Assembly: GCA_921293015.1 (NCBI GenBank)
Contig: OV121081.1
Coordinates: forward strand, 78,633,022 to 78,697,021
Reading direction: 5' to 3'
DNA from: Phorcus lineatus
Lineage: Eukaryota; Mollusca; Gastropoda; Trochida; Trochidae
DNA: 64,000 nt
Shown here: one piece after another, positions 31,219 through 63,818 of the stretch
Layout: every line of letters begins with the position of its first letter
Position numbering within the stretch: the first letter of the stretch is position 1
Made by a program: the position numbers and the translations under genes
The notes under the pieces: generated by a model
The model's database searches: none
What the model was told of the DNA's origin: nothing
The model's input: the letters and a program-made list of their open reading frames with translations, nothing else

Positions 31219-34200
31219 ATGAATGACACGACGGGAGACTTGCCTCTTGTAATTCCGGTAAGTGATTTCAACCCATTCCTCGACATTCATCCATAAACTC
31301 AGTTTTGAAAAGGGATAAAAATAATTCTGAGCAGAACAGGAAGCTGTTATATATGTAAACAAACTGAATAAAACCGTCACCATTTCTTGATACATGAAGT
31401 AATGATTTCGCAAGACTCTTTCATAGAATCATTATTACTTATGTACATACTTTAAAGGTAACGTTACCTAGGGTATCAAAGTGCCTAATTTGGCGAAGCA
31501 ACTGTACTAGCTGTTACATTTGATGGTGCTACCATCAGACAATGTCAGATCTATAGACTTTTAAAGGCTTTAAATTAAGATTCGTCACCCATGAGAGAGA
31601 AAAAAAATATTTTCTTGTTAAAGACGTGTTTCTTGTGGGCAACTCCCTAGTGCACACTGCACCCTGAGTATGTCGAACTGAGGTATTTGATAACTCCAAA
31701 TGGCTGGACTCGAGGACGAGTCACTTTGTGGAGGGGGTGTATGTGGCAGGGTGAAGTAAAAGTATTCCTACTGGTTTTGGCCAGAGGGATATCTCTTTGG
31801 CTGAATCGGTAGAGTGTAGGACTCTCACCCGGAGGTCGCGGGTTCGAATCCCGCGGGAGGTGATCTCACAATCGCTTCTGTTACACATACACATGCATTA
31901 GAGAGTTTATGTTTGTATTTGCTTATCCTTCATCTCAGTTCCTTTCTCAAAGTGTTTTTTTGGTCAAATTTCAAAATCTTTAGCTAACAAAACGTTACCA
32001 TCAGTAACAATGATGAATAGTAAAATAATAATTTTTGAATGACATATATGGGTTTAAACATGAATATGTTCCCTCAAACTTTGTTTCCACAATAACAGAC
32101 CTTGATCGAATTGACTCTCCTTTTTTATTGTTAACTCAATAAAAGATCATCTTCCCATCCCATAACCACCCATGATCATTTCATTGCTAGGTCCAGCTTG
32201 CAAATTCCTCATACAAAAATATCATAATGATGTTGTAGAAATTCCTTTATTTTTCAAGTTTGTCTGCGAGTAGCATATAACTACATGTTCGTGTACCCTT
32301 AGATCGATTGGCTCAATATATATATATATATAAATGAGATATATATTGTATACAGATATCAGTATTGGAGGAGTTCTTCCAGTGTTCAATATGTCTGAAC
32401 AACATGAGAGAGACAATGACCACCCCCTGCGGACATCGATTCTGTGGGAAATGTATCCGGGAATGGGTTGATAGAAACCATCATTGTCCCTGCTGTAACA
32501 GCACGGTCCTCCCTGCAAGTCTTATGAAGGATCATCAGTTTGACAGCTTGATCAGTGAGTGCTGCAGCTCAAACAGAAAATCTGAACTGATGCGTTACAT
32601 CACATATTTAACCTTAGTTTACGAGAGTAAGAAGTTAACCATTTACAAAAGTGTTTATCCAGAAATACTGCTTTCTCTTAAAGTCTAGTTTTTACGACAA
32701 AGATAATTTCAACTGATAAAAAAAAAGAATTTTACCCAAGTGTTTATATTTATTTCACGATAGTGTGCAAATTGTGAATGGGATTAGCCAAGAAGCTTTC
32801 AAAGCTAATGTTGAGGCCTCTCCCTTGAACCTAATAAAAGTACATGTTTCGTACATACAAAAATAATGTGTATCATTATCCAACCTTGTTAATCATTTGT
32901 ACAATTTTACCTAAGTGTTTTCTGATATCAAGTTGTCAAAAGTTCAAAAGGTCATGAGGAAATTTGAGATATTCAATGTTAAACTGTTTTCATTTGAAGA
33001 AGTCATTTATTGGGTTGCACACAAAAAAAAGTTTGATATGATGTCAACCAGAGTTGAGCACAGCACGAGAGACATGGTATACGGCGTGTCCAGAGGTATG
33101 AAACCCAGTTGATTTACTTTATCATTTAGGATTTATATGTTATTAAGTCTAATTGGTATTGCAGGTTCAGTGAACTCGGAGAAGATGAAGGCTGAAGACA
33201 AATATTTCGAAACACTCATCAGCGCGGGTAAGGTCACTGTCATGTTAAACTGATTTTAGAAAACATTCATACATTGTTGAAGATGAATCATTGCACACTC
33301 CTTGTGTTCATTTAAAAATTTTTTTATTTCATTTATTTTTTTTATTACACAATTTTGATAATTTTTACATGTTACAGAGTTTACAGAGTTACAAGTTCTC
33401 ACACTATTTTTGTAATATTTCAGCAACCTTACCTGAACGTGAACTAACAGGGAGAAAATTTTCACCAGTGGAAGAGATACTGAAAAGTAAGATGACGTTG
33501 TGTTCGTGCTAAAGATGCAGAAGTAGAAGTCAGCAAAAGCTTCCAAAATAGTTTCTCAGTAAATACTGATGGAGGATTTTTTATTTCTTTGTAAAAACTA
33601 ATATCAATCTCAATACACTCATCAAATTCTTTATTTCTGATTCATTTTTAAACATGAATTTAGATTCAGTTGCGTCAAATTAGTTTCAGATATATTGCTC
33701 ATGAAATATGATTTTTATAAGATAATTTTTCTCTCTGCAGAACATTTAAAGCAGAGCCTTGCATCACATGAACGATATTTTCAGGTAAGACACTCAATAT
33801 CAGTCAGCCTTAACTCATTAACGCCGAGAGCCGCGTATAGGCGTCCGTTAATTAGCAGTTTCTCACAGCGAGAGCCGCGTATAGGCGTCCGTTAATTAGC
33901 AGTTTCTCACAGCGAGAGCCGCGTATAGGCGTCCGTTAATTAGCAGTTTCTCACAGCGAGAGCCGCGTATAGGCGTCCGTTAATTAGCAGTTTCTCACAG
34001 CGAGAGCCGCGTATAGGCGTCCGTTAATTAGCAGTTTCTCACAGCGAGAGCCGCGTATAGGCGTCCGTTAATTAGCAGTTTCTCACAGCGAGAGCCGCGT
34101 ATAGGCGTCCGTTAATTAGCAGTTTCTCACAGCGAGAGCCGCGTATAGGCGTCCGTTAATTAGCAGTTTCTCACAGCGAGAGCCGCGTATAGGCGTCCGT

Positions 34201-37200
34201 TAATTAGCAGTTTCTCACAGCCAGAGCCGCGTATAGGCGTCCGTTAATTAGCAGTTTCTCACAGCGAGAGCCGCGTATAGGCGTCCGTTAATTAGCAGTT
34301 TCTCACAGCGAGAGCCGCGTATAGGCGTCCGTTAATTAGCAGTTTCTCACAGCCAGAGCCGCGTATAGGCGTCCGTTAATTAGCAGTTTCTCACAGCGAG
34401 AGCCGCGTATAGGCGTCCGTTAATTAGCAGTTTCTCACAGCGAGAGCCGCGTATAGGCGTCCGTTAATTAGCAGTTTCTCACAGCGAGAGCCGCGTATAG
34501 GCGTCCGTTAATTAGCAGTTTCTCACAGCGAGAGCCGCGTATAGGCGTCCGTTAATTAGCAGTTTCTCACAGCGAGAGCCGCGTATAGGCGTCCGTTAAT
34601 TAGCAGTTTCTCACAGCGAGAGCCGCGTATAGGCGTCCGTTAATTAGCAGTTTCTCACAGCGAGAGCCGCGTATAGGCGTCCGTTAATTAGCAGTTTCTC
34701 ACAGCGAGAGCCGCGTATAGGCGTCCGTTAATTAGCAGTTTCTCACAGCGAGAGCCGCGTATAGGCGTCCGTTAATTAGCAGTTTCTCACAGCCAGAGCC
34801 GCGTATAGGCGTCCGTTAATTAGCAGTTTCTCACAGCGAGAGCCGCGTATAGGCGTCCGTTAATTAGCAATTTCTCACAGCGAGAGCCGCGTATAGGCGT
34901 CCGTTAATTAGCAGTTTCTCACAGCGAGAGCCGCGTATAGGCGTCCGTTAATTAGCAGTTTCTCACAGCCAGAGCCGCGTATAGGCGTCAATTAATTAGC
35001 AGTTTCTCACAGCGAGAGACGCTTATGTGCGTTAATGCTTCATTGAGCTACGCCCATGTCTGTTATGAAATAATTACATACACACCTGTAATTCGTACAT
35101 TTCTTTTGCATTTATTACTTACCATGTCATTCAAGTCCCTAAACTGCAAGATCTTGCGTATTAGATTCAATAAATAAGTCTAAATAATGTGAGTATCTTT
35201 TGATAAATACACAGTACAAGAAGAAGTACCTACGATGTTGATGATCCTTTGAATATTCGTTCAATCCGTTCATACTATATACTTTTCAGTTAACGCTATA
35301 TTTGGGCAACTTTGATACCTTGAAATAACAATCCTGTAGAATAAAACCTGTATATACGCCGCAATTCTTTGTGCATGCAATCAGAGTTCTATATAAAGAT
35401 TATTAAGTTTGCTAATATGCTACATCCATTCGTTTGAGCTCAAACAAAGACGTTAACTTTTGTTTTATTTACAATATGTAACATCAAAGTTCGTTGTGAT
35501 ATCATATTTAGAGTTGATACCGCATCAACAAATTCTATGGATTTTTCAAAAATGATAATCTGGCCTCGTCAAACATAGGGCACTTCTTCATGTGAAAGAC
35601 TTTTCGATTATATAAATGTGTTCATTACTTTTACTTGCGTTCAATCTCTGAAATCATGGTACCGTTTACATGGCTAATTTATCATTTACATAGCTGGAAT
35701 ATGAAACGTCAGATAGTATTTAGACATGTCGTAATTTTATTTTCAAATGGAAATTCGTGTCAAATCATAATGAAAGAAAATATAGTTGGTACTTGCAAAA
35801 GAGTAAACGATATGCCTTCATCAAATCACTTGAATGCTAAATTGAAAAAGACATTTTCTAACATGAAGATTGATGCAAGGTGATACATTATTTTGTTACT
35901 TATAAAGATCCACGCACATACTCTTAATTGGAGACGGGCAAACCCCTTAATTAACAGCATAAAGAAAAAAATCATTGAAGAATAACGGCATGTGATGAAT
36001 CTGTTAGTTATCTGTATTCAATCCCTTTATCTCTGTTAGATCTTCATGAAACAATAAAACAATCTAAACTTTATGATTCATGGCTAGACAGTTTCTGTTC
36101 ATACCGTCCTCATAAACCTCTCGCTTAAAGAGTGGTGCTTTGACTTAATCAGTCTCGCTAGAGCAAACAGCTTCAGCGGTGACAGGCACAGGTGTTAAGC
36201 CGTAAACCGTGTCCAGGTGTTAATGAGTTAAAAAAACACTTTTATAGAGAAGTTGACCAAATATTTTGACATAGGAAGAATTAAGAGTAAATTTTGAAAA
36301 TGCATTGGCAAAAAATTTTCAGGTAGCAGGAAATTATGAATTTAACTGACAACCTCAAAGTTACCCTGTGTCATGAGTGGGTGTGTTTAGCTCAGTATCA
36401 AGAGGTCTTAGGTTTGAATCCCATCAGGGCCTCAGTAACTTTGTCTCCAGTAGAGATCTGTTCTACCTGCAGTAAGGTTTGGGTACAATGCTACACTGAA
36501 TTTCAGCGCAGTGCCACCCAAGGTTTGCTAGCCGATGCTGGCAGATGTCACCACAATGCATAGCTACATTGGGGTTGCAGGCTTTCTCATGCGGTGATAT
36601 AAGTGATTTCCTTGCCTCAACTCATCCTGTGTCATGTTTTGCTATGTTGAAGTTATCAACAAAAATATTTTCAGAACTATTGAATAAATACACTTTGATA
36701 TTTTTGGTTAGGTTTTTAGAAATTTTCTTGTAACCAGGAGTGATTTTTTCCCATTGTCACATGACATTTTTGATAGTTGATTGTAAATGGTTGATAAAAA
36801 TAATTATTACATTGCTTTATTGAATTTTATTCTAACTACTGGAGTCTCTTTCACCATCGAGAATTAATATTCTGACCTCTGAACTATCAGACACCTAACT
36901 TTAAAACTGATAGTCTGTGTAAATGTGAGATTTATCTGTGTCTTGACGTTATGAATATGATCTTTTTTGGACTTATTTTGTTTGACGCCATCTTATCGAG
37001 TTTCATTTAAAAATTTCTTTTTTTATCAATCCATCATTTATTGCTTCTTGTGTTCAAACACACTTGGTTCTCCCAGTTATCTGACTCCCTGTTGCAGAGT
37101 CTACGCCAGGAGTTCACCCAGCACCAGCAGAAACTGGAGAGAGAGATGGAGAGAGCACTTCAGACTCTCATGTTGGACGGTGTCTCGCCCACAGGTCTGT

Positions 37201-40200
37201 CAGTCAGTCCTCATGCAAACATGATCTCATTTCGGTTCATTTCCAATTGAAGTGACCTTGAGACATGCCAGAAAATCAAGTTTTTAAAGGTCGTTTAGAA
37301 GTGACATACAAAAACATAAAGGTCTCCCGTATAACAATTTCTATAATTTGAAAATCACAAGAAATTAAAAGAAATTGTTTTTCCCTATTTAACCCTTAAG
37401 ATGCGGGTCCCGGAATATTCCGGGATGAAATTAGCTTTGCCCGCAAGTCCCCTTAGCGGGATGCGAGTAGCACACTCTATTTTTCTCACGCTAACTAATT
37501 ATGACCGCGGGTCTCGGTAGCGGGGCCCGGAAATTTATTGCCTAGCAGTAGTCTCAGTTCAACGCTTGTATTTTCGTTCCGGCTGTCGCTAAGCAACCGT
37601 GTTTTGTTTCGTTGGTGTTCTAAATAATGCGCGAACATGCTCCGAAAGTTATGAGAGTATTGATAATGTTTATCGTACCGAAAATAAACGTTAAAATCAC
37701 TCAATTTTTCCCCACTCCCCGCCGCACGTGCTAATAGCCTGTGGGCACTTTCTACCCTCTCGCACGAGCTTACCGACCCGCGCATGCTATCGTTTACTGA
37801 GACGCGTGCATTTTGCCCCTATGCACGCCTTCCTATCGCACGCCCTATGTTCTGAACCCTTGGGCGGATTTCAATATAGGTGGGATCATTTGAAAAAGAA
37901 AAAAAATGTCTTTAATTCGATGTAAAAAACATATGTGCGCCTCGTGAAATAAACATACCGCATGTGCCGCAAAAAAGGTGATTTTTATATATTTTTGACA
38001 TTTTTTATATCACAAGATAGAGAAAAAGATTGTCTTTAATTCCATGTAAAATGTGTACATGCGCAACAATTCATAAAGATACAGCAAGCGCCGCACAAAA
38101 AGGTAATTTTGCCGACTTTCTTATCATGTGATCTGAAGCGCGATTTTCATGTGCCTTTCTTTCACAATGAATTTCTTTTACACCGTGAAAAAGATTTTGT
38201 TGAATTTTACATCACTATAAAGACAAATGAATTGTCTTTAATTCCCTATATCAATTATTATGCGCGCAAATAAATAAAGACTCAACAAGTGCCGTAAAAA
38301 GAACAACTTTCGCACTTCGCAATTCCGTTAGTGACGCAAATAGGGAAACTTTGGCACTTCATATCCCCGTGTACAAATGACACATTTCAAAACCATTTAT
38401 ATCGTTATCAAGAGGAATAAATTGTCTACAAAGTGATATATAAAATGTACATGCGCTAAAACAAACGACGATGCAGCAAGCGCCGCACAAAGGGTTCTTT
38501 TCATGTGATCTGAAGTTCGATTTTCATGTACCTTTCTATGGCACTCGATATTTTCTATACCACTTGGCGGATTTTGATAAATATTACGTCTAAATAAAGA
38601 CGGAACGTTGTTCTTCATTTCAATATATTGATCATACATGCGCACACAAAAATAAAGGCACAAGAAGTGCTGCAAATTTGGCAAGTTTCGCATTTCGTAT
38701 TTCTGTAACCAAGTGGCGCGCTCAACAACGTTTGGTATCAGCGTAAAGAGCAGAAAATTCTCTTCAATTTGCTATACAATTTGTTTATGCGCTCATAGAA
38801 ATAAAGACTCAACAAGCGCCGCTAAAATGTTATAAATAAATGTAATAATTAAAAAAAATTATGAAGGAAACCCTGTTTCTTTAGTGTTCAATTATAGAGT
38901 TTTATAAAATGTGAAAGTTGAAGGAAAAAAAACTTTTGGATTTACATTCATAGCGTTATTGATGTCTTTTTTGAGTTAGGGGATTTTTGCGTCGGGCACC
39001 GCCATCAGTTCATGGGAAAATTGTCAAACGAAAATGTTGTGGTTGAGACACAGTATGTCGGGGATGCCGTCGGGAACCGCCATCAGGTCAAGGCAAAGTT
39101 GTCCAACGAAAATGTTTGTGGTTGAGACACAATATGTCGGGGATATTTCGCCGGGCACCGCCATCAGGTCATGAGAAAATGTGTCCAACGAAAATGTTCG
39201 TGTTCGAGAAAAAAAATTCCAGCGGACTTTCGTCGGGCACCGCCAGCAGGTATGTGTTTTTTTCTGCCAAATTTTTTTTGGTCGAGGAAACTCATTTTTG
39301 AAAAAAAAGTTTGGTAGCATTCCGATGTTTTAAATAGTTTGCTATATATGTCGGGATGGCATGAGTTCCTTCCAGTGAACTAAAGACAAGGGGCCGGGTG
39401 CTCCTTGACTACGGCCGTCCCGACAGATAGGCCCGTGGAACCTATCATTCTCGGAAGAGAAGTCAAGAGTTGAAAAACTTTTGTAATCCACAACTGACAA
39501 ACAGAACTTTCCTGACGTAGAAGGCAGTTGTTCGCGACTCGCCGGCTCGTTGCATAGGAGTCAGAAGGCGGCATCAGGGTTGATAATGTTGATACAACGT
39601 CGGCGGCTGTCGGTGCCATCGGCACCTTCGGCGGGATTGTGAAAAGTTGTCCGAAAGTTAGAAATTGTCCAGCAATGTTAGAATTTGTCCTAATTTGTTA
39701 TTTTTGCAAATCGTGAAACAAAATGTCCGGCTTTCGCCAGGACAATTAGAAAATGTCCGGATTATTGATGACCGCTGGCGCCAAAGGCGCGCAACGGCAA
39801 ATTTGTTTCAAACACTTACAAAATGTGGCAATTGAATGTCCATGAAGCTCACATTGAATTTCTCTGTACAACAGGTCATGTGTTGATGTTATTATATCTT
39901 GCGTGTGCCTAAATTATTTTCAATCATTTACAGATTGATGTGAAAGATGCCTAAGGCCAGGAGGCTGCGAACCAGGAGTTGGGAAGGTCCGTCAACGTCT
40001 AGCGACGACGACTTCATCAACAAGGTCCATGCCGATGAAGCTTCTGATATGGAATCAACTGATGAGAGTGATAGTGACAGTGACAGTGATAGTGAAAGTG
40101 ACATTGATAGTGATCAAGAAATAAGAAACATTGCAAGAGACATATTAGCTGGTACGGGTGAAACTGCTACGGCTGGTACTTCCACAGAGGAAGAGTTCAG

Positions 40201-43200
40201 TGGCTTTGACGAGCAATATAATGAAATGGACACACATTTTGATGACCAAGATAATTTTATGGATCGCTGGGAAGAGGGGCCGAGGCAACGTGGACGTGTC
40301 GAATTGCATTTTACTGGCGCAACGGGATTAGGACGGTTCATAGAATTGCCTGATAACCCGCAACCTGTAGACTTTTTCGGACTGTTTTTTCATGAAGATG
40401 ATTATGGATCATTGGCAGCAGAAACCAACAGATACTTCCACCAACAGGTCGATGATAAGGTTCTGAAACCCTGTTCACGGTTGAGGCACTGGTATGATAC
40501 GAATGCCGAAGAAATGAAAGTATTCATTGCAATGACAATAGCAATGTCTCTGGTTGTACAGAGAAACTTTTCTGAGTATTGGTCAACAAGTGATGTTACG
40601 TCGACGCCCTTCTTTTCCAAGTGCATGCCCCGCGACAGGTTCTGGCTACTGCTAACGTATCTACATTTGAATGATAACAACCTAATGCCGGGACGAAACA
40701 CTCCGCATTTTTCACCAATGAATAAACTTGGCTATCTGTACCAACGCATCGTGCATCGTTTTTCCAGAGTTTATAAGCCGCATCAAAACATTTGTGTTGA
40801 CGAAGGGTTGGTGCCTTGGAAAGGCAATCTGAGTTTCAAAGTATATAATCCCGACAAGCCGAAGAAGTATGGGATAAAGGCCTACATGTTGTGCGACTCA
40901 ACAAATGGTTATGTTTGCAAGTTCAAACTCTACACTGGAAAAACAAATGAAGCTGTTTCTGTTGGTGGGAAAACGTATGATCTCGTCATGGACTTGGTGA
41001 AGGAATATGCTGGGAAAGGGTATCATGTGTTCATGGACAATTTCTATTCCTCGGTGGCATTGTATATAAACTTGTGGGAAATGGGAACTGGTGCGACGGG
41101 AACTTTGAGAGGAAATCGCAAAGGCATTCCTGAAAAGCTAAAGAAGGCACAGAAGAATCAGAAGAAAGGGGATAAGACAGTCTATCACAATCAAGACCTA
41201 CTCGTTTTGCGGTATGAGGACAGGAAGTCAGTGTTGCTCATGTCAACCGTAGAAGACGCCGAAATTGTAGAGACAGGAAAGAAGAACCGAGTGACTGGGG
41301 AAGCAAATACGAGACCACGTATTGTGCACGAATACAACAAATATATGGGAGGTGTGGATCGGGCCGACCAGATGCTGTTGTACACCCCGTTCAAAATGAA
41401 AACTCTTAAATGGTGGAAGCGCGTGTGGTTTCATGTGTTGAACGTTGCCATGTTGAATTCTTACATTATCTATAAAGAATTCTCAGAAGACAAACCTTTG
41501 AAAACAAGCAGTCAATTTAGAAAAGATTTGGTGCAGCATATGATCACCTTCGCCGAAACAGAAAAAGTGCCCTCCCTGCACAGACGTCCTCGCGGCCGGC
41601 CGAGCACGAGCGACGATAGTGTCTTGCGACTCCATGGTCGTCACTTTCCATCAAAGATTCAGCCTGTTGGAAAGAAGAAAAACCTCACACGCATGTGTGT
41701 TGTTTGCTCCAAAGCGAATAGAGAACTTCGTCGAAGGGAATTCGAAGAAACAAATCAGCCAGTTCGAAAGAAGAAAAGGGTAGGCAAAGAATCTTCTTTC
41801 GAATGTATCGAGTGTAATGTGGCTCTATGTGCAGCACCATGTTTCAGAATTTATCACACGTCACAAGATTGCACTAAAGCTTATATCAGTTTGATGTCAG
41901 AGAAGGAAAATGAGGGGGATAATCAAGAAGATTGAAGAAAGAAGAAAGAAGCAGAAGTGTGGATGAGCGTTACTCTCCTTATAAAGTTTTTTCTTCACAT
42001 CAATAAGGTGAATAAGTGTAATATAAAATACTGATTGTCAATAAAATAATCTTTTTTTTAAGTCGTAAAAGAGACAGAGAAAGTCAATGTGAGCTGTCAC
42101 TGGACGTTCGATATGAGCCGCATCACGAACCTACCCCCGATCTTTCGCAATTTGTTTTCTTAGAATCGGGTGGCGAAACTTCATACTTTTTACGTCATCG
42201 TAAAGGGAAAAGAACTGGCTTTGATTCATTATGAAATGTGTATGTGCGCAACACATAATAAAGAAGCGGCAAATAATGCGAGAAATGTCGCAATTACCAA
42301 TTTTTTCCCCCAAATGTCTTAGGGTACCCCTCTTTAACGGTTCATATCTCCCGAACTATTTGGCACTTTTAAAATTTTTTTCCACCCTTCTCAAGTGGAA
42401 AGAATGATCTTTAATTCCATGTATAATATGCATGTGCGCAATTAATAAAAATGGTGCGGCGAGTGCTGCGACAAATGTCGCAAATAAAACGATTGTCAAA
42501 ATCTATTTTCAAGTAGTTGAGGGTGTCGCTCTTTCGCGGTTCATATCTCCCGAACTATTTTATACTTTTTTATATTTTTTTCACCTATTTCAAGGGAATA
42601 TAATTGTTTTTAATTCCATGTATAATATGCATATGCGCAGTCAATAATAACGATGCGGTGGATGATGCGACTGGTGTCGCAAATAGAACGCTTATCAAAA
42701 TTTGTTTTCAAGTAGTTGAGGGTATCACTCTTTCGTTTTTCATATCTTTTTAACCAGTTGGCACCTTTTCATTATTTTTTCACAGTCGTAAGGACGAAAG
42801 ATTTATCTTTATTTCCATGTATAATTTGTACATGCGCAGCAAGAAATAACGATGCGGCGTGCGTATAGAATGATTGATTTTATTATCTCGGAATGTTTGC
42901 CCGCGTGTGACTGCACGCGCCGAGAGGATCGGTACAGCAGGAAGCAACGCTGGTGCTTAGAACACTGGCACTGGGGGTGCCCCGGGGGTATAACGGTACT
43001 AATTAGCGTACCGATGCCAGACTGCCCAAGGGAGAATTAGTTCTGGCTAAAAATCCCGTTATGTCGGAGCATCCTCGGGGTACCCCCAACCATCTTTCGC
43101 GGCGTATATCTTTTGAACAGGGTGACATATTCTAACAATCTTTTATCATCATAAAGAAGAATAAATTGTCTACAATTCCATATATAATACATGTATGCGC

Positions 43201-46200
43201 GCTAAGTATTAGGGATTTTATTCAGCCGGAAATAAAGACAATCTTTAGATAATTGTAGAAATCTAACTAGAGGTCGCATTGTAAAAAGATATATATCATC
43301 GTAAAGAGGAATAATGTATCTTCAATTCCATATAAAAAAATTAATTGTGCGATTATATTTAAGGATTTTCCGTAACTCTAAATAAAGACAATCTTCATAT
43401 TGCAATAGAAACCATTCTAGGTAAGATAAAAATTTCATTCAAAGTGTCGGATAAAGATCGTTCATTTGTGTACGGGATTGGCGGGCTACTTTTGTATCGA
43501 ACGGTCAGTTTCACCCGTAATCCGCCATGTGAATACACCATTTATCGAAAAAACAGCCGCGACTCGCGGTGCGAAATAATTCAGCCACAGGGGCTAATTG
43601 CGTTACCGTAGCGAGGCGAGTGCTGGAAAATTCAGCCACGGGGGCAAAACTGGTCAAAATAATATTCAGCAACGGAAGGGTTAAGCATAGTAAATAAACT
43701 TGCAAGGGCAGATCAAGGAGAAATAATCAACAATCTCAACTCAAACTAAACAAATCTGCCTCAAGCAATGCAGGGACAAATGATACTTATATGATTTTAA
43801 AGTAATGGCAGGTCAATGGTGTGCTCTTTCCTTGTTGATATAGAAGTACAATTTTGTGAGTTTTAGATTTTGAAGTTTAGACTCTTTGAGTCATTGGGGC
43901 TATGCCCAAAAATGTAACTTCAATCTGCTCTAGAATTTTAAGACCTTGAAAGCAAATATCTTGTGTTTAGAAGGCTTGGCATATCTATACTATGAATTGT
44001 AATTAAGTTAACCCTCTCAACTTTTGGAAACCGTAAGATTTCAGTCACAGATCCTGTATTATTAAATGTCTTTATTCATGAGCTGAAGAGCAAATTGCTT
44101 AATTTTCATTGAACATTATTACATCATCAGTTTGGTGAGAATCAGAATTTGAAGTCTTTTAACTTCATCTTCTTGGTCAGTGTTATTTAGCACACAGTGT
44201 GTTGTTGCTTTCAAAACTGAAGCTTAACTACAAAATTAGAAACCTTAAATTCAACAAAAATTGGTTAAAAGAAGATAAATTGCTGATGATAAATTGCCAT
44301 ATTGTCTCAAAAGGCTCAATGGCCACGCTTTCAAGGTCTGTTATTGTACTGAAAATCAAAATCAAGCGAGATTTTGCCCTTATGCACTATGTGAGGTTTT
44401 CTTCCACATTGCGCTCGCCTTGTAACAACTGCGTTATCATTTAGCAGATGTTCCGCCCCAGTCAAACTTTCCACAGTTACTGTCTTCAGAGTAGTTCTGT
44501 AAGTGAAGAAAAGCTTGTAGCAGGTACTTGTTGTGTGTTACAGAGGTACAGCTGCAGAGTGCGGAGCTCGAGTCGAGACTCAGTGCACAGAAGGAGAATC
44601 TCAACTCACAGCTCAACAAGTGCATGCAGCTTGTAGCTGACGCTTACGACAGGTGAACTGACTACTTTCTCTTCTGGCTACCAAGGGTTGACTTCAAAAG
44701 CCCAGAATCTGGATTTAAGAGAAGTATCATTTTCTTCTGACTGTCTGTCAAAAACATCAACTGATATGGTCATTTATGGGATTGGATTCATTCTTCTTCT
44801 TTGAAATTTATAAACAATTCATTTAAATGGAAGGTTTTACCCCCAACACTGAGCCCCCTTAAATGTGTCTTTCAGTGAATGTAGTCGTTATATTCTTGTC
44901 ACCTACAGGTACCTGACAAACCACATCCCCACAATGGAGATACTTCCCGTCAAGGTGTCTGTTTATCTGCCTGACAAAAAGCTGAGGATACCAGATGTCA
45001 CCATCAAGGCTTCTGAAGAGTATGTTAGACTTCTTTTATCTACTGACGTTATATCTTTACAGTTTTTATTTGGACACTCATAGTTCTTCTTTTGTTTTGT
45101 GAACCCCATACTACTTATCCCAGGCAAGGGGAGTGCTTCAGGGTATTTCCTCTTTAACAAATGCTCAAAGAACAATTGAAATCAGTGTTTTGAAGTAGGT
45201 TTTTTGCATATCCAGAGTTATGTGAAAATTCATGATGTACAAGATTCTTAAAATATTTATTATTGTCAACAAGTTGCTTAATCTCAAGGCACTTTCAACC
45301 TAAAATGCAGTCAGTTGTGATTAAAATTTCCTGACATGTATGTTACTCAATGATTGCTTTGGGGAGTGTCTAGAACAGGCAAGTTTAAAAGAATCTTTGT
45401 AACTGAAATCATCTCTATTTAAACTTTGGTTTGGAAATCTTAACTGTGTAATCCATGTGCGACAGCATCAGCGGCCTGCAGACAGTGATAGAGCAAGAGC
45501 TGGCACAGAGAGGAGACCCACTACTGCGCTGGGGCTGCCAGGGACAAATGGTTCTTGTTGGGTCAGTACTCAACTTGGTTAAGTGACTTATATATATATA
45601 TATATCAATCATATCAAGAGTTTCCTAGATTTTACTTGATTAACATCAATGAAAATATTTTGGTTCCAATTGGAGTCTATCAAGATATATTAATCTACTC
45701 GTTTATTGATGGCTCTAAAAGCATCAGCATACAGTGAATGTCAGTCATTTTAAATTCAATGCAGTTATTTGTTTTATTTCAAGACAATTTTTCAATTTTC
45801 TTATTGATTCCAAAACATACTGGCAAGATCAAGGGTATGTGTGGTTTATAGGTAAAAGAAATCAAGTAAGATAACTTTGGGTGTATGGGTTCTTGCAGAC
45901 CACTAACAAAAGAGAATGTTGATGACCTTGACCTACTGCTGGAAGATCGAAGCCGGATGGAGTTGTATCCAGACGTTTACCCACTGACCTGGCACTGTCG
46001 TCCAGTCCTGCAGTATGGAATGGTGAGATACACTCAGTAGAAAAGGGTACTTGTCGATCCCTCATCATTAATTAGTAATGTTGACTTTAGTGTTGTCTCT
46101 TAACATTGAATATCAAGGTATTTGCCAAGAGAATAAAAGTTATTGTACAAGGATCATATTGATGACATTGCCTAGTTAAAATGAACATTGATGCTTGAGG

Positions 46201-49200
46201 ACTGAGAGTTGGTTGTTATCCTATAAAACATAAATATGTTGGAACAATGAATTTATTCTTTAATGAGCCACTCCGTGATTTTCATATCATTTTATTTACC
46301 TTTGATACAAACCTAAATGTCATATGTGGTGATATAAAAATCAAAACAAAAAAATGCACAGAGGTGTAGATATCACATCCAATATAAATGGATACTAGTC
46401 AAATAACCTAACATACACTATCAACTCCTAACTGCCCTCCTGGCTGTTATAGATAAGTCTCAAAAATTACTTTTGACTATTTGACGCGCACCACTGCCCG
46501 GTTTTCGATCATAATTGCGACGTTCTACCTTCATATTGTCACTGTAAAAATCCAACAAGCTTTAAAATATGTCTTTTTGGTAACAGTCGATACTTCGCGA
46601 TCAAATAACACCATTGATTAAGTTTGGCATATATGACTCCAACAACTCACGGAGTGGCTCTTTAAGAAACTATTCAACAACCTATTTACTCAGACTAGGT
46701 GACTCTCTAAGAACTCTTGAAATAAGTAATCAACTCATATAGTAAACCATTGCTTGTATTACAGAAACCAGGAAGTGAGATCATTGTGAAGGGATGCTTC
46801 AAGTGTGAGAGTGACATGCCCAAAGTTTGCTTCGTCCAGAAGTACAAGGAGCAAGGGCCGTCTCCCGTAGACTACTTTTCCTGCAAACAGTGCGGGTTTA
46901 ACTGTAGGTACAATCTACTGCTACAGGCTTACCATCACTGATGTAATGGGAAGTCTTGAACCTTATGCATCAGTAACAGAGACAAATAGCAAATAAGTTG
47001 GATCTACAAACTCATTTTGCTTCTATGGTTTTACCATCATTAGTGTTGTAGGAAGTGTTGTAACCTTGTGTTGTAAAGGACATGTAAAGAACTGGGCTAT
47101 AATCTCTTTCTTCTTTTAAAGGTTTACTATTGTTGATGTTATAGAGAGTCTTGTGTGTCAATAACAGAGTGAACTCTAAATTAGACGATCCCCTGAAGAA
47201 TCTGATATCATGTGCTGGAAGCTTTGTTAAACTGTAAACTGAGGAATCTGTGATAGTCTTTTAAGGCCTATTCTTCTCCAGTGACCGATCCCAATTATTT
47301 CCTATGTTAAAATTTCAAAATACCTTTGAAATATGAAAAACATTTTTAACTTCTCAATTGCATTTGTTGGGTATGACCACTTGCTTGATAACTGTAATAG
47401 TATCTCTACAGATCAGACACAGCTTTTACAAAGATGAAGAGGTTGTTAATCCATGATGCATGTTCTTGTATTTCTTCATCTTACAAACTTTTAAAATGCA
47501 TCTTATTTAAGTTCCCTTCTTTAAGCCACTCAGAATATTTTGGCAGTATTGTCATGCAACAGCTACAGTGTTTAGCTGCAGTGATATTTAAGTTGTGTCG
47601 TGTTTTTTTCTTTGCAGGGATCTGCAAGTCATGTGTGCAAATCTGTCATCAAGGTGAGTTGCCTGAGTGACAGTCACCAGTTATCACTGCCATTGCCTTT
47701 GGCTCTGTCGCTCATCAGTCTTTGATGATTTATTGCCTTAGCTTGAAGACATATATAATTCAGTTTCATCATTGTATTTGTATTCGAAAAGCTCCTACAA
47801 AATCCTGATATTTGTCATGGTAACGTTTGGTGACTCATGGCTACAAAGGCATGTAATTTTTTCAGCCAATGATATAATGTTACTTGAAGATCCTGAAATA
47901 CCTTGAGCCCCATCTTCCTTTTCATCCTGATACAGCCTTGATTGCTGAAGGGAAGTCATTCTTTTACCGAGTGTCTATGAATAGAATGAATATGCAACTC
48001 AAAGATTTTTCTTAACATATCTCAGGGTGGTGTAGGAGCTTTGGGGATATACATTTGCCGATGTAGGAGGATGGACATACATATTAAATCAGAGGTTTAT
48101 TATATACAGTGTGTCATTACTAAGCTAATAATCTGTTAGTGAGGAATGGTGAACACAAGGTGACAGTATGTAAGTGTGTTATGTTTTATCAGAAAATGCC
48201 AGATTATAGCTTTTAGGGAGTTCTAGGACTAGCACATTGTGATGCAGTGTCACACACTCCTATAATTTGCTCTGAAAATGATTTTATGAAGCACCTAAAA
48301 TATGAAAAATCAAGTTAATACAAATAGCCTGTATAAAAAGCTAACTGTACCAGGCGTGAACCTAAGAAAACTTGTATTCATAAATAATTTTTTTTTTTCA
48401 GGTCATAATGTTGCAACACATGTTCTGAATCACAAACCAACATGGTAAGTCAAAGGTTACCAAGGCAACATAAAAACATTTCATGTATTGTTCACTAATT
48501 TTGTCTTATGCTTTTCACCTTTATTTACTAATTAATCCATTAAAGTCATATGTAGCTACTTAACTCATCCTGCTCATACAGTCATGTTATTTTTGAGACT
48601 CCTACAATCACCGTCACTAGATTTCCCTTTATTATTCAATCAATAATGTTTATTCAATAGAAAGGCCATTGGCCCTTCCCATCTTCCTGTGTTAATTCTT
48701 AATGGTAATTCTGATGAATTATTATCTGCCTCAACGGAGGAGGTCATACAATACCCCGATACCAGGCTGAGGGCTGGTTAGTCATTGCTATGTTTAGTGT
48801 GTAATTTGCGAGGTAATTTGCAAGTGCTTGATAACGGTGTTGGTATCTACACCGAAACATCACAATCCTGCAATAAAGAAGTTGTAAATTCCATAGAACT
48901 TGTTCTCTATTCAAGACTCTAACTATTCTCCAATTGCCTTCACTGAAATTGCCCAACTGGTAACTCATAGCTTATTATGCCCTGAAGAGACTTATAGCAA
49001 TACAATCATCAGGCTATGAACGAAAAAAACCTCAGACGGTAATCCATGAAAAAAGAAAAAAAGCTAACAGTAGGTTCAGACATCAGAAGTTCATGCCTTA
49101 ATGGTTTCTACATTTTTGTTGTTGTTCATTCCTTAACAGTGTAAATGTATATTTACTTTCTGCGTCAAATGCACACAACTACCTCTATGCAGCAACAGTT

Positions 49201-49359
49201 AACATCTCCCATCGTCTGAACATCATATAGCATGGTTTCTTAGTTTGGAATAAAATTGATGCTTTCCTCCTTACCTTAATTTAAATCTTTTCATGAATTT
49301 AATGTTGCAGGGCTTGCTGTTACTGCCCTAAGAAGAAGACGTGTAAACTTCAAACTTGA
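31219..49359 (+). CDS. RING-type E3 ubiquitin ligase candidate with C-terminal UBR-like zinc module (14 exons, 403 aa)
   Basis: Exons: 31219-31257, 32356-32554, 33165-33227, 33424-33486, 33741-33784, 37098-37194, 44544-44652, 44909-45019, 45466-45561, 45899-46022, 46765-46903, 47618-47653, 48402-48444, 49311-49359; 1212 nt, every phase closes, stop TGA. Start MNDTTGDLPLVIP, then a C3HC4 RING (C23-x2-C26-x11-C38-x-H40-x2-C43-x2-C46-x10-C57-x2-C60). Residues 61-136 are charged; 137-204 form a coiled coil (HQQKLEREMERALQTLML); 205-315 are beta-rich (VKVSVYLPDKKLRIPDVTI), possibly ubiquitin-like. Residues 326-401 are Cys/His-rich (CFKC; YFSCKQCGFNWICKSCVQIC; HQGHNV; WACCYCPKKKTCKL), resembling the UBR box of UBR4/FBXO11-type proteins. 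Role inferred: ubiquitin transfer, with the C-terminal module binding a substrate degron. Introns 5 and 6 hold a TTAA satellite element and a 6.3-kb piggyBac. I cannot assign a named orthologue. Confidence 0.88.
31791..31861 (+). repeat. tRNA-like sequence (SINE head or tRNA pseudogene)
   Basis: 71 bases with a pairable acceptor stem (atctctt / gggaggt, with G-T pairs), a D-arm-like tggctgaatcggtagagt and a perfect T arm (gcggg-ttcgaat-cccgc). The putative anticodon stem around ctctcac does not pair, so a functional tRNA (it would read Glu) is unlikely. In intron 1 of the RING gene, + strand. Confidence 0.5.
32315..32334. repeat. (AT)n microsatellite
   Basis: About nine AT dinucleotides just upstream of RING-gene exon 2. 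Confidence 0.8.
33810..36231. mobile_element. TTAA-bounded non-autonomous element containing a 44-bp satellite
   Basis: 2422 bp. The left end ttaactcattaacgcc (33810-33825) and right end ggtgttaatgagttaa (36216-36231) are inverted repeats matching at 15 of 16 positions, with TTAA outermost at both sides as in piggyBac-type insertions. The left half is a 1.2-kb tandem array; the right half is AT-rich with no supported coding region. It starts 26 bases after the donor of RING-gene exon 5 (33784). Confidence 0.75.
33822..35034. repeat. Satellite array, 44-bp unit, about 27 copies
   Basis: Highly homogeneous head-to-tail repeats of a 44-bp unit including 'gagccgcgtataggcgtccg' and 'ttaattagcagtttctcaca'. 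Variation is mainly g/c at one position (agcgag/agccag), one a-for-g (tagcaa) and degraded last copies. CpG-rich compared with its surroundings. Unspaced, so not a CRISPR array. Confidence 0.97.
36376..36625 (+). mobile_element. Degraded copy of the tRNA-derived SINE
   Basis: Follows 21651-21966 along most of its length: tagctcag, ggtttgaatcccatcaggg, ctcagtaactttgtctccag, aaggtttgggtacaatgcta, gccgatgctggcag, and a truncated tail at gcggtgatataagtga. Many substitutions show it is old. Intron 5 of the RING gene. Confidence 0.75.
38991..39250 (+). repeat. Tandem repeats of about 80 bp inside the piggyBac 5' region
   Basis: Four degenerate units, each starting with gtcgggcaccgccatcag (38991, 39069, 39150, 39232) and including ttgtccaacgaaaatgtt and gttgagacacaatatgtcgg. 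Located 0.7-1 kb upstream of the transposase ATG. Confidence 0.8.
39947..41935 (+). CDS. piggyBac transposase (DDE_Tnp_1_7 type), intact, 662 aa
   Basis: Cuts and reinserts its own element at TTAA sites. A single uninterrupted frame from ATG 39947 to TGA. The N-terminus is acidic and serine-rich (MPKARRLRTRSWEGPSTSSD, then SDSDSDSE). The catalytic core shows three aspartates in family context: D285 (VDEGLVPWKG), D364 (VFMDNFYSS) and D471 (GGVDRADQM), with spacings close to those of the Trichoplusia ni enzyme (268/346/447). The C-terminus has a basic stretch (RRPRGRPS) and a cysteine-rich DNA-binding domain (MCVVCSKAN, then FECIECNVALCAAPCFRIYH). A splice-acceptor-like tttacag lies 15 bases before the ATG, so a 5' UTR intron is possible. 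AATAAA at 42040 follows. No frameshift or stop: possibly still active. Confidence 0.95.
   Translation: MPKARRLRTRSWEGPSTSSDDDFINKVHADEASDMESTDESDSDSDSDSESDIDSDQEIRNIARDILAGTGETATAGTSTEEEFSGFDEQYNEMDTHFDDQDNFMDRWEEGPRQRGRVELHFTGATGLGRFIELPDNPQPVDFFGLFFHEDDYGSLAAETNRYFHQQVDDKVLKPCSRLRHWYDTNAEEMKVFIAMTIAMSLVVQRNFSEYWSTSDVTSTPFFSKCMPRDRFWLLLTYLHLNDNNLMPGRNTPHFSPMNKLGYLYQRIVHRFSRVYKPHQNICVDEGLVPWKGNLSFKVYNPDKPKKYGIKAYMLCDSTNGYVCKFKLYTGKTNEAVSVGGKTYDLVMDLVKEYAGKGYHVFMDNFYSSVALYINLWEMGTGATGTLRGNRKGIPEKLKKAQKNQKKGDKTVYHNQDLLVLRYEDRKSVLLMSTVEDAEIVETGKKNRVTGEANTRPRIVHEYNKYMGGVDRADQMLLYTPFKMKTLKWWKRVWFHVLNVAMLNSYIIYKEFSEDKPLKTSSQFRKDLVQHMITFAETEKVPSLHRRPRGRPSTSDDSVLRLHGRHFPSKIQPVGKKKNLTRMCVVCSKANRELRRREFEETNQPVRKKKRVGKESSFECIECNVALCAAPCFRIYHTSQDCTKAYISLMSEKENEGDNQED
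42040..42045 (+). promoter_or_regulatory. Poly(A) signal of the piggyBac transposase
   Basis: AATAAA in 'gtcaataaaataatc', 105 bases after the transposase stop codon. Confidence 0.6.
42343..42930. repeat. Degenerate repeats of about 198 bp in the piggyBac 3' region
   Basis: The phrase 'ttcatatctcccgaactatt' occurs at about 42343 and 42540, with a weaker copy (ttcatatctttttaaccag) at about 42738. Each is followed by an A/T-rich block, 'taattccatgtataat', 'tgcgca' and 'gatgcggcg'. Related single units occur upstream of the transposase and in the 20378-23138 copy. Confidence 0.7.
45589..45605. repeat. (TA)n microsatellite
   Basis: About eight TA dinucleotides in intron 9 of the RING gene. Confidence 0.8.
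46260..46665. mobile_element. MITE copy 3 (family of 17747-18226), internally deleted
   Basis: 406 bp. The ends are ttaatgagccactccgtga and tcacggagtggctctttaa. The interior follows copies 1 and 2 but lacks about 70 bp, including the 'catcttaacttttcatg' segment. No coding capacity. Lies in intron 10 of the RING gene, again with TTAA outermost at both ends. Confidence 0.85.
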
Positions 49360-53799: not shown

Positions 53800-56700
53800 A
53801 TGACGTTGACTCATGTATGTGTGCTGGCAGTCACTGTGCTCGTGTTGGGCGGGCCAGGCGAGGGTGAGTTCTGTCAATATTTCTTCCACCAGGCGTTCTT
53901 CTCAACGAAGAGGTCAATCCATTCATTTGTACAAGAAGTTGAGAAACCTGATCATTTCAAAGTAATTGTGCAACACGGATAATCAGTGACGTTATTTCTA
54001 ACTGAGCACACTCGATGTTGCCTTTAACTTTGAGAAGATCGGAGTTATTGCGGCTGAAAATGGAAACTACACCCATACCTCCTTATCACACGTCGGAATG
54101 AATTACAGGGGAGAAAATATCCTAAAAGCAGTATCTCCCACTTACACCAGTGTCAAAGTTTAAGTAAGCAAAATCCTATTAGAAGTAAATTGGTGAATAA
54201 TCCTGTTGCACGTCAGATCTTCCTCGATTAATCTACAGCTACTTATGAAACCCGATTCATTGTCTCAAAGAAATGACGTCACTAAAGGTATTACTGATAT
54301 TACGTTACAAACATTACATACACAATCTTATTCATTTGTGACAGAAGACAGAGTTGGTATTGTAAGGGACAAAATGTTACTTTAGTTCATCGAAAGTGAT
54401 TCACAATAAATATCGTTAAATGAAGACGGGATACAAATAAGTTTATAATGATTCACGCTATTTCATACCAACTATTAGCAGTGTCATAATCATCATAGCT
54501 GCATTGATGCAATTATCACTTACATCTACGAACCAATTTTCCCCGAGTTATTTTTAGTCTACAACAGGTCATTTTGTGTATTGTATCATGGAAGAAGACA
54601 GTCGCTCAAACTAGAAAACCCTATGTACGTGTTTCAACTCGAGTGGACTGTTTTATTAAAGGCATTATTAAACCTGTAAACGTATGAAACGATCTTCTGG
54701 AAACAAAACAACCATGTAAGTGAATGATCAACGTTATTTTCAATGCTGAGATATGAAATGATGCTAATATATTGAACCTTGGGATGGACCGTTACTCGTC
54801 TCGTTAGAGAAGTCTCAAAGCACAGTATACATGTATGTGTCTCAATCCCTGCAGCCTCGACATACACGTCTATCGGTTTCCCGGCCTCCAGCCGGGGCGA
54901 GGACTACTACAACGAGGGTACAGGTCTTCTCTTCGTCAACACGGACTTCCCTCTGGAGGTTGGCAGACTGTACCAGATCTGCTACTACATACACAGGGAC
55001 TTCGACAGCGACTACACGGGGAGCTTCTACGTGCTGACCCACACTGGCTCTAACTACCGGGTGCTGTACGCGCAGAACGTCACCTTCCAGAAGCTGGAGG
55101 GCAGATACTGTGTAGGTGTACATGTCAGGAAGGTCCAGAGGGTGGAGAGGGTTCCCTAGATAAACGAATGGGGGAGATTGATTCTATTTACTCATACTAT
55201 TTTGCTCTTTGTTAACATTATTTGTAATGTGGCAGGAAGCATCTCTCGTTCCTCCGGTTTTTTTATTGGATGTAACGTTATACTTATAAAAGAGCACATC
55301 ACTCATCACAGACGATTTTCTCTTTGAAATCAAAGAATTTTAAATCAAATTTTCTTTAATTGACATTAATAAATATTGAGGTTGATATGGTCAGTTCTTT
55401 TATAATTAAAATGTCCATCATCGGCCAACAAGTAGTCTGGATACCATACTTATGAAAAAAAGGGCAGTAATTTTTTTCTACCATATTCCACCTACACGGG
55501 AACCTGTATTCCTATATACGTAAGTTGCTCCCCATTCACAGAGAAACACGACCCGGCCAGTGGGGGTGAGGGAGGGACAACTGCTGGGGTGGCGGTTCGG
55601 CTCCAGCTCGGGCCCCATCTCCTACAATGTCACAGATAACGAATCCCGGGGGACCCTGGCGCTCATCAGCCCCAGTGCTAACCTAAGGGTCGGGGATACA
55701 GTCGGGGGTCTAAGGTTCACCAAGACATACTACTTCAAGATCGAGGCTATCGAGGAAACCGGCCTTCTCGGAGCGACTGGGGCTTCAGGGGCGACTGGTC
55801 CCCCTGGAGCTAGCGGACCCCCGGGGGAAGAGGGGGAGTCGGGTCCTCCTGGGGACAGAGGTGATACGGGACCGAGGGGCAGTACTGGCGTAAAGGTGAG
55901 TGCTACATGGAGGGTTGCAATTATCTGGTCAAGTATTGTCGGTTTTGTTACAAGGAAGTTCTATCATTGATTGTATATACGTTAAGGGTTTGAAATTGCA
56001 ATCCCTTTAAACAATGTTTATCTAGGAATACAGATCTTGGAAATATCATGTTTGTTTTCCTTGCTAATCTTTCCTAATAGGCATTTACATATTATCGTGC
56101 TTTTTTATTTAGGATCATGAAAGTTATGAAAATATTAAGATTATTGAAAGTTTAGTTATATTCATCTATCTATCTTTTTGATTTTTGCTATTTCCGAATT
56201 ACCGTGCCACTTTCGTTGTGAAAGGGTGACCCAGGCCTGTCAGGAGATAAGGGCGACACAGGTACCCCAGGAATGACAGGGCCTCATGGTTTAACAGGGC
56301 CAAGTGGGATAACTGGACCAGGAGGCAGGTAGGGATTGTTGGTCATATTTCACGTACTTTCATTTCCCTTTCTCTAAGGTATTTAAGTACAATCTAATGG
56401 TCAATCATAACTATGCATTGAACAAATGATAAACAGTATTGATATACTTAAAAATCGGGCATATATTGATAAAGCAACGCATTAACTTACACTCATTCAT
56501 GAACAAAATGGGAACGGCATCAAGTACATTTATGATGAACTGTTTTTATTGGTGTGCGTGCGAAATTGGCAGGTTAAACCTTTTAAAACGAAAATAGAGA
56601 ATATCATTTATAAACTTCAGTCAGTTGCAATCTGAAAACAAAGGGACAAACAAGTGGACTTGAGCAGCAACTCTAATGCACTAAGTGATGTATATTTTAG

Positions 56701-59700
56701 TTAAAAAGGCCAAAGGGGTAATATCTAAATTATTTATAGGTGTAAAGCGAGTGTAGACAAAGAAGTTACTATTTCAGTCAGGGACTGACAGGCGATAAAG
56801 GTTCCCCAGGGAACACGGGAACTCAAGGACCCGCGGGAGAGACGGGACCAGCAGGTTCGAGAGGAGACACGGGACCGAAGGGAGACACGGGGTCAGCAGG
56901 TACAGCTTATAGCCAGATATTTGGTGTCTGAGAATACATAGAGAACGATTGGTTAAATTACACTTACGACGTCATACTTATACTCACTGGCTCTATTATT
57001 TCAGTAATATTTTCTTGTACCTAGACATCTAGTTTTACAATTAAAATTCTAAAAATATTCAATTTTTTCACGATAGGTTGTTAAAAGCGCAATAGGTTGA
57101 GTTTAATATAAGTAGGTTGATATCCTCGTTACTCTCCATTCCTTAAAATGCTGTACTATCATTTTTAATGATAACCAAACAACAAATCGTTTTGGACAGT
57201 CTATTCATGTCACTTCCATTTCCCGAAGGTCCTCAAGGAACCGATGGTGTACCAGGAGTAGCGGGTGCGAGTGGACAAACCGGACCTGGAGGGAGACAAG
57301 GTGAACCGGGAGAAACAGGGGCTCCTGGGCGCCACGGCGAGCAGGGATTAACGGGACTCACCGGGACTCGGGGCAGTCAAGGCAAGATACTTATGATAAT
57401 ATCTAAAACGACGTCGCTGATTGCACAACTAGCTTTGATTGCATCCAATGAGGCTTATACATTTCTAGACCGAAAACATTTGCATTTATGTCGTAGCTAC
57501 CTCTGTTCGAAGGGGATGCCATCATTTATGCCTTGAAGTAATAGAAATTTGTCAAATCTACCCCTACATAGATACAAATTCTTGAGGAACAGAAAATAAA
57601 AAGCTTGTTGGATGATTAGTGATATTCATTTTAACAATGTTTATTTAACATACATTTACCAGAGCAAAGTTGCGACCCTTGACCCTAAAGTGAGACTATA
57701 AACTATGTATTTTAAACTCAACAACATTCTTATTGTTATCCTACGAAGATTCCTGTTAAATTTTCAATATGATTTTACTTGTTACAGGACTGCAGGGAGA
57801 GACGGGTGTTGCCGGATCAACGGGAAGGGCAGGGGTGTCCGGACCATCAGGCCCACCCGGAGTAAGCGGGGTTTCCGGAACACCGGGTAGAGACGGTGCT
57901 AAAGGGGAACAGGGTGAAGCAGGATCCACCGGTATTGCCGGGTCTACTGGTTTGTATATTTCAAAAATATTTACTTTTGCTAAATATTTAACAAAATTGC
58001 ACCTGCAACGATAAGTATTGTCTACACGCATTGTTAGTAAATATCAATTCATCTGTTGTCAGGGCCAATAGGTTCTCATGGTGCTCTTGGACAAACCGGT
58101 CCTCAAGGTAAACGTGGTTTTGATGGTCTAACAGGAAGTACTGGGAAAGAAGGTGTTGAAGGAATGACGGGTAAATTATAGATAAATTTATATGCCATGT
58201 TAAGAGACACTTAGTCATAATCTAATATAGAATATTTGATGATATCTTTTTTTGTTTAACTTCCATGACAACACTAAATCAACCCTTACACAAAGCTAAA
58301 AGAATTACTTGGTTTTCTAGACGTCTTTAGTTATAAACGAATAAACAATATCATGAATAAAGTATGTCCATTTCTAGTTGTTGTTTTTTTATCTAGGTGC
58401 TCGAGGTCTACCGGGTGTGTCTGGACTCCCAGGCCCATTACCAAACGTAAAGGGGCTCAGGGGACAGGCTGGTGCTGCAGGTGAAAGCGGAGTACCAGGG
58501 GAAGACGGAATCACTGGCGCAACAGGTATGGACAACTGTGCACTTTTCACAAGTGTTTATTTCCTGGAAGCTACTGTAGCTTCAGCTGTAACCCTCGATT
58601 TTGTGGCGTTCTGTTATATTTTCTTAATTAGAAGAAGAATTGTATTTGGTATTGAAGGCATCAAAGCCAATAGTACAAACATTTGAAATAATTGTAAATT
58701 GTATTTTAATAATAATAGGTTAAAATGCAAATATGTAAACGTGTTCACACAAGCAGGTTGCGTTTTACAAATATCGAAACCGATTTCAATAGATTTTCAT
58801 TCGATGTTGCTAAAATTTGTTTGTAATAATTCTATTCTGATGGAAAAGTATGATAATAAATTCTTCAAAAAAAGAAACTTGACACTGACTTTCAAAAGTA
58901 AAATATAAAGATCACAGATGCAAGTTAAACATTGAAATGAAAACTAAAACGCTGTTTGAAGATCTCTGTTCAGTAAATTTTATTCAGAATAAGCATGATC
59001 TTGAAATTCACAGGTGCACAAGTGTTTCAACATCACAGGGGTGCACAAATTTCAGTATCGGGTATGGCCACCATTGGCATTGAGTATTGCTTGGCACCGA
59101 CGACCCATGGATGCAATCAAGTTGTCAATCACAGCCTGTGGAATGTTCTGCCATTTGTGCTGAAGTGCTGCAAGAAGTCCTGGAAGTGTTTGGGGTGGTG
59201 GATTCCTACTGCGCACGCGTCAATCCAGTTCGTCCCAGAGATGCTCAATTGGTGACAAATTTGGTGACCTGGCTGGCCATGGCAATGTCTGGACATTATT
59301 ACGCTGTAAAAAGTCTTGACAAACACGTGCAACATGTGGTCGAGCATTGTCCTGCTGAAAGAGACCACCATGGACGTTGACGTGAGGAATAACGTAAGGC
59401 TGTAAGATCAAGTCCCTATACCGTACTCCTGTGAGGTTACCCACAACATGCACAAGGGGTGTCCTAACACCGTGACGAATCCCGGCCCACACCATGACAC
59501 TCCCACCTCCAAATGGGACAACCTCCTGAACACAGTTGGCAGCATAACGGTCTCCACGTCGGTATACACGTGCTCGTCCATCACTTCGTCGAAGCAGAAA
59601 ACGGGACTCATCAGTGAAGAGAACGGTTCTCCACCTTGCACGTGCCCATCTCATCCTCTGTTGACACCACTGGAGACGTTCCGCCAGATGACGTTGCGTT

Positions 59701-63662: not shown

Positions 63663-63818
63663 GTGATCGTTTTTTAATATTCTAATAAACAGTCTGTAAA
63701 ATTTCCTTTCTTCATTCCATGTATTACTATATTGAATTAAAATAAAGTGTTGACTTTATCTAGTGAATAGAGAGAACAAAGAAAGGTTTCTCTTTCACCG
63801 GAAATAATACCTCATTTT
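63663..63818 (+). other. Collagen intron sequence
   Basis: Begins with the donor of the last visible collagen exon (gaag|gtgatc). The next Gly-X-Y exon must lie beyond base 64000. Confidence 0.6.

Follow-up and report, generated by a model that had tools for sequence, protein, structure and literature searches.

A 403-residue RING protein with a putative UBR-like C-terminal zinc module in the gastropod Phorcus lineatus

The DNA analysed here is a window of 64,000 nucleotides from Phorcus lineatus (assembly GCA_921293015.1, contig OV121081.1, positions 78,633,022 to 78,697,021 of the forward strand). It contains a + strand gene, located at 31219-49359, that encodes a RING protein ending in a Cys/His module which resembles UBR boxes. 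The gene consists of 14 exons and 13 GT-AG junctions, all of them in phase (Table 1). Re-splicing gave an open frame of 403 codons, with the start codon at 31219 and the stop codon ending at 49359, and reproduced the exon number, the in-phase junctions, the protein length and the borders given by the original prediction, a first reading of the same DNA from its letters alone. The start codon of exon 1 is the first Met codon after an in-frame stop, and the 13 introns, each running from GT to AG, are between 196 and 7349 nucleotides long. The G+C content is 0.48 for the coding sequence and 0.54 for its third codon positions, compared with 0.38 in 16,929 nucleotides of intron, and the other five frames of the coding sequence contain 14 to 23 stops per frame. 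The 14 exons are presumably transcribed as one unit.

Our repetition was only partly independent of the original prediction: its length played no part in placing 13 of the 14 exons, but exon 33424-33486 was sought since the predicted 403 residues and the position of the predicted coil implied 21 extra residues before the coil. Two introns were scanned for in-phase exons, with no length fixed in advance, and two candidates passed the threshold. The first, 33424-33486 (63 nucleotides, good splice sites), was the sole candidate above the threshold in its intron and was adopted; the second, 33000-33095 (96 nucleotides, in the preceding intron), was over the same threshold and was left unused. An initial model of 417 residues, again with 14 exons and 13 in-phase junctions, was wrong: it lacked 33424-33486 and held a false exon at 46587-46698. 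This bears on the earlier argument that, with all junctions in phase, the architecture could not be a fusion produced by gene prediction. The argument is wrong in principle, and phase closure is weak proof, because the erroneous model with the false exon also closed 13 junctions in phase.

The segment 46587-46698 (+, intron 10) was rejected as an exon; it belongs to a dispersed repeat, and this copy, which retains a residual open frame, mimics a coding exon. When the genome was searched with the 417-residue model and 100 of 10,213 candidates were scored, 91 of them fell on this segment, 82 of these 91 with internal stops; eight others were the gene's own stretch (one being the repeat copy in the window) and one was a RING-and-helix match at another locus, on C2. 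On present evidence the segment is not an exon, and it may at most be spliced in occasionally. Without it, exon 10 joins exon 11 in phase 0. PDB matches of the 417-residue model to cytochrome b-c1 started within this segment and were discarded. When the genome was searched with residues 206-403, the six matches obtained up to E 10 all fell on exons of the present gene. No second locus for this C-terminal half was found in the whole 958-Mb genome by this exon-by-exon search, in which exon 14 is too short to appear and divergent paralogues could be missed.

Table 1. Exons of the gene, its RING finger and the transposase frame in intron 6 (positions in the window; aa, amino acids)
Feature	Position	Strand	Residues	Remarks
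Exon 1	31219..31257	+	1-13	start codon
Exon 2	32356..32554	+	14-79	entire RING finger
C3HC4 RING	32383..32496	+	23-60	Pfam PF00097
Exon 3	33165..33227	+	80-100	
Exon 4	33424..33486	+	101-121	
Exon 5	33741..33784	+	122-136	
Exon 6	37098..37194	+	137-168	charged, probably helical
piggyBac-type transposase open frame	39944..41935	+		663 aa stop to stop; intron 6, outside the gene; PF13843 E 5.5e-91
Exon 7	44544..44652	+	169-204	charged, probably helical
Exon 8	44909..45019	+	205-241	middle domain begins (about aa 213-325)
Exon 9	45466..45561	+	242-273	middle domain
Exon 10	45899..46022	+	274-315	middle domain
Exon 11	46765..46903	+	316-361	end of middle domain and start of UBR-like module (C326, C329, C337, C355, C358)
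Exon 12	47618..47653	+	about 362-373	WICKSCVQICHQ
Exon 13	48402..48444	+	about 374-387	GHNVATHVLNHKPT
Exon 14	49311..49359	+	about 388-403	stop codon; WACCYCPKKKTCKLQT

Several Pfam RING models match residues 22-61 of the protein, with PF00097 on top at 23-60 (E 8.2e-10; 38.8 bits compared with a cut-off of 21). The C3HC4 set of zinc ligands is complete (C23, C26, C38, H40, C43, C46, C57 and C60). Judging by this match and these ligands, residues 23-60 certainly form a RING, just as had been predicted. Ile25, Trp50 and Pro58 occupy what we take to be the RING positions that commonly touch the E2 enzyme, and the RING would be expected to confer ubiquitin-ligase activity. At C2:24248423-24248833, a 312-aa open frame shows 30% identity to the RING and the following helix (residues 13-147 of the 417-residue query; E 2.4e-8).

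Downstream of the RING, residues 81-206 consist to 40% of Asp, Glu, Lys, Arg and Gln and contain only 2% Pro and 2% Gly. Such a charged composition, poor in Pro and Gly, is as expected of helices. The zf-B_box family is not among the 21 Pfam families reported for the 403 residues at E values up to 10. For the middle region (residues 212-325), PDB sequences gave no match up to E 10, and Pfam gave no report and no ubiquitin-like family. A trimmed version of the region had a single Pfam report, AvrPto (E 0.08; 13.4 bits compared with a cut-off of 27), which was discarded as chance. Inspected by eye, residues 213-325 have a strand-strand-helix-strand order with LQYGMKPGSEIIVKG near the end and resemble a ubiquitin-like domain, a resemblance for which the PDB and Pfam searches give no support. 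Apart from the RING, which matches PF00097, the statement that the protein belongs to no named family is correct as far as Pfam and PDB sequences are concerned.

The C-terminal tail carries the motifs that had been described as a Cys/His module, and we located them at 355-358 (CKQC), 362-367 (WICKSC), 371-377 (CHQGHNV) and 388-393 (WACCYC). Residues 337-399 contain nine Cys and two His (C337-x17-C355-x2-C358-x5-C364-x2-C367-x3-C371-H372-x2-H375-x15-C391-x-C393-x5-C399), which are ordered as in the subfamily-2 (UBR4/FBXO11-type) UBR box. For UBR4, one zinc is reported to be bound by two Cys plus two His, and the other two zincs by seven Cys (PMC10687169); the total found here equals that count, with C371 and its UBR4 counterpart taken as ligands by our own counting. 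In subfamily-2 UBR boxes, a Cys substitutes for His166 (PMC10687169). Shuffled tails kept the ligand order in 1 of 1,000,000 cases with a strict pattern and in 9 of 1,000,000 with a looser one, figures that are optimistic as the ranges of the pattern were chosen after the sequence had been seen.

When the tail was compared with all PDB chains by phmmer, only three matches reached E 10 or better. Two are FBXO11 UBR boxes, 7yrb (0.0053) and 5vmd (0.041); the third is an unrelated zinc finger (1.7). The first residue of the tail query was wrong (Leu for Pro) in this search and in one Pfam search; the Pfam search was redone with the correct protein. Furthermore, six zinc-ligand columns are invariant in a MAFFT alignment that combines the tail and four UBR boxes from this genome, which were found with PF02207 (loci L001-L004) and are called UBR3, FBXO11, UBR4 and UBR7 by resemblance. 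The tail probably does resemble UBR boxes, although the similarity at the sequence level is modest, and this suggests a UBR fold for the module. Of the original prediction of a compact ligase that combines a RING with a UBR-like module and could read N-terminal or other degrons, the compact RING protein with its module gained from these results, FBXO11 UBR boxes being the best solved matches and the subfamily-2 ligand order being complete; the N-degron reading did not.

In UBR2 and UBR4, the N-terminal amine of the substrate is held by Asp150 and Asp1715, together with the backbone of Phe148 and Phe1713 (PMC10687169). If the CDC motif of these boxes is aligned with CYC of the present tail, the Asp is replaced by Tyr392, and Phe1713 corresponds to Cys390; MAFFT places a gap at the Asp instead. 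The residues 352-403 contain no Asp and no Glu, and the GAKEDGSC of the UBR4-like box from the same genome corresponds to PKKKTC here. Canonical N-degron reading is not supported, because the amine-binding Asp is missing and residues 352-403 lack any acidic residue. Thus, the C-terminal module is probably not an N-recognin, and it has been reported that not every UBR box binds N-degrons (Kaur and Subramanian, PMC4506424). It might also be possible that the protein is a genuine N-recognin with a rearranged pocket, in which for example Tyr392 and Trp388 stack against an aromatic N-terminus, and with a RING that ubiquitylates the protein so captured; it would then be a very small one-chain analogue of UBR1, UBR2 or UBR4. 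UBR4 indeed reads aromatic N-termini via two Phe and not via the classical Asp153 (PMC10687169), and Trp388 and Tyr392 are located near the corresponding positions. However, Asp1715 of UBR4 still binds the amine (PMC10687169), a type of residue absent from 352-403, and the loop after CYC is rich in Lys. We regard such an N-recognin as quite improbable.

Taking the domains together, we consider it fairly probable that the gene encodes a single-chain, TRIM-like RING ligase that has no B-box and carries a subfamily-2-type UBR-like tail, which is probably a non-N-recognin. The N-terminal RING would recruit the E2 enzyme, the helical region would probably pair two chains, and the C-terminal half, with its domain of about 110 residues and the subfamily-2-type UBR-like module, would recognise a substrate or a partner. 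The UBR-like module would have kept the set of zinc ligands and lost the acidic residues for the N-terminal amine and for arginine. Its ligand would most likely not be a canonical N-degron, in line with the current view of non-N-recognin UBR boxes. The combination of RING and UBR is not unprecedented, since RING has been reported among the domains that commonly co-occur with UBR boxes (Kaur and Subramanian, PMC4506424).

Several observations weigh against a TRIM-like ligase with a UBR-like tail. The residue after the last RING Cys, presumably the linchpin position that is often Arg in active RINGs, is Asn61 and neither Arg nor Lys, and the ligase may be weak. Of the coiled coil predicted at about 137-204, the charged stretch poor in Pro and Gly was found, while a crude heptad score was not above chance, being reached by 195 of 2000 shuffles for residues 115-206 and by 815 of 2000 for residues 137-206; a coiled coil at this position is plausible. 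Pfam zf-UBR (PF02207) was not reported for the tail up to E 10, in searches where the HMMER filters drop most weak matches. With a home-made profile of seven short UBR pieces, the tail scored 6.4 bits and the whole protein -5.6 bits; 19 of 20,000 shuffles did as well as the tail. In addition, the spacing departs from that of UBR boxes: the two CxxC are separated by five residues, not eight, and the loop that follows the His pair is longer. Finally, the sole Pfam report for a partial tail was zf-B_box (10.4 bits; E 0.78), from a search in which two of three queries included some residues translated from intron.

The zf-B_box report would fit a different explanation, according to which the tail is another RING-like treble clef of the B-box or ZZ type and the protein is a rearranged TRIM-like protein with a B-box-like finger at its C-terminus. 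It has been argued that UBR boxes are related to B-box and ZZ by permutation (PMC4506424), and the end of a B-box fits CKSC...CHQGH. However, a B-box or ZZ finger gives no role to C390, C391, C393 and C399, while the UBR pattern employs the full ordered set, and the three PDB matches of the tail include two FBXO11 UBR boxes and no B-box. A treble clef of this type is, in our view, unlikely.

The architecture could also result from two misjoined genes, one for a RING and helix protein (exons 1-6) and one for a zinc-finger protein (exons 7-14), connected across intron 6, which is 7.3 kb long and contains the piggyBac element. Closure in phase is not decisive by itself, and the C-terminal half was found at no other place in the genome that could confirm the architecture. 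However, the exon 6/7 junction is in phase at GT and AG sites, and the charged, helical-looking sequence runs across this junction; no alternative first exon before exon 7 was sought. We consider a misjoining highly improbable and retain the single-chain RING ligase with the UBR-like tail. The piggyBac-type frame is flanked by an inverted repeat of 22 nucleotides with 95% complementarity (39846-39867 and 42074-42095). Intron 5 contains a 44-bp tandem repeat with 27.3 copies and 98% matches (33825-35026).

This single-chain ligase could represent a separate, hitherto undescribed family of compact animal E3 ligases. Such a family would combine a RING, a helical region for dimerisation, a beta-rich domain that is ubiquitin-like or new in some other way, and a UBR box redirected to another ligand through the loss of the CDC aspartate and the change of an acidic to a basic loop. 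We put this forward tentatively and with some doubt; the protein may well be on record as uncharacterised in other animals. Among the titles and beginnings of abstracts in literature listings, some of them partial, we found no description of a compact protein with the RING first and a UBR-like module last, and a literature search with six peptide words gave no paper. Searches of viral contigs (417-residue model; RING exon) and of bacterial and archaeal contigs (tail) gave no relatives; animal genes are not expected in these collections. With a UBR fold in the tail, the protein would be a RING ligase on one chain, about 45 kDa as estimated from its length, and its RING and UBR module could be expressed and assayed jointly, in contrast to those of the very large UBR1-4. 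It would also provide a natural UBR scaffold without the N-degron residues, useful for asking what such boxes bind. If the tail does not have a UBR fold, the protein would be an ordinary RING protein with a zinc finger.

Elsewhere in the window, a probable exon of a class II tRNA synthetase is located at 414-734 (+; PF00587, E 1.2e-14). At 14411-15403 (+), an open frame of 330 aa has a whole-protein NHL score (PF01436, E 1.2e-7), with no individual repeat passing and no RING reported. A run of open frames with Gly-X-Y repeats at 55524-63685 (+) probably belongs, as its exons, to a single collagen gene (PF01391, E 1.6e-29 for 61934-62551). Between these collagen-type frames lies a piece of a Tc1/mariner-like transposase (59220-60023, -; HTH_Tnp_Tc3_2, E 1.4e-9; DDE_3, E 6.5e-9).

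Among known ligases, Arabidopsis PRT1 is a smaller one, with RING-type fingers and a treble-clef finger that reads N-termini. PRT1 has a ZZ domain (PMC4506424), unlike the UBR-like module found here, and none of the three matches of the tail in the PDB is to PRT1. With the TRIM/RBCC proteins, the present protein shares the N-terminal RING, the helical-looking region next to it and a separate C-terminal region. TRIMs typically have a B-box after the RING (PMC3503706), whereas Pfam reports no B-box here. In addition, the C-terminal half of the present protein has no Pfam family above the cut-off.

UBR1, UBR2 and UBR3 are very large, with the UBR box ahead of the RING. They are similar in that RING and UBR-type module are part of one chain (PMC8346999, for the RING class). 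In contrast, the present protein has the RING first and the module last, is 403 aa long and has a box of the Cys type. The subfamily-2 boxes of FBXO11 (UBR6) and UBR4 differ from the present module, which has CCYC in place of CDC, followed by a PKKKT loop, and an additional CxxC (326/329) in front. The present protein is also far smaller than FBXO11 and UBR4, and Pfam detects no F-box or UBR4 parts in it. The order of nine Cys and two His is nevertheless the same as in these boxes, and FBXO11, the top PDB match of the tail, is also similar in short motifs, with DFYRC corresponding to DYFSC and CHQGHDV to CHQGHNV of the Phorcus protein.

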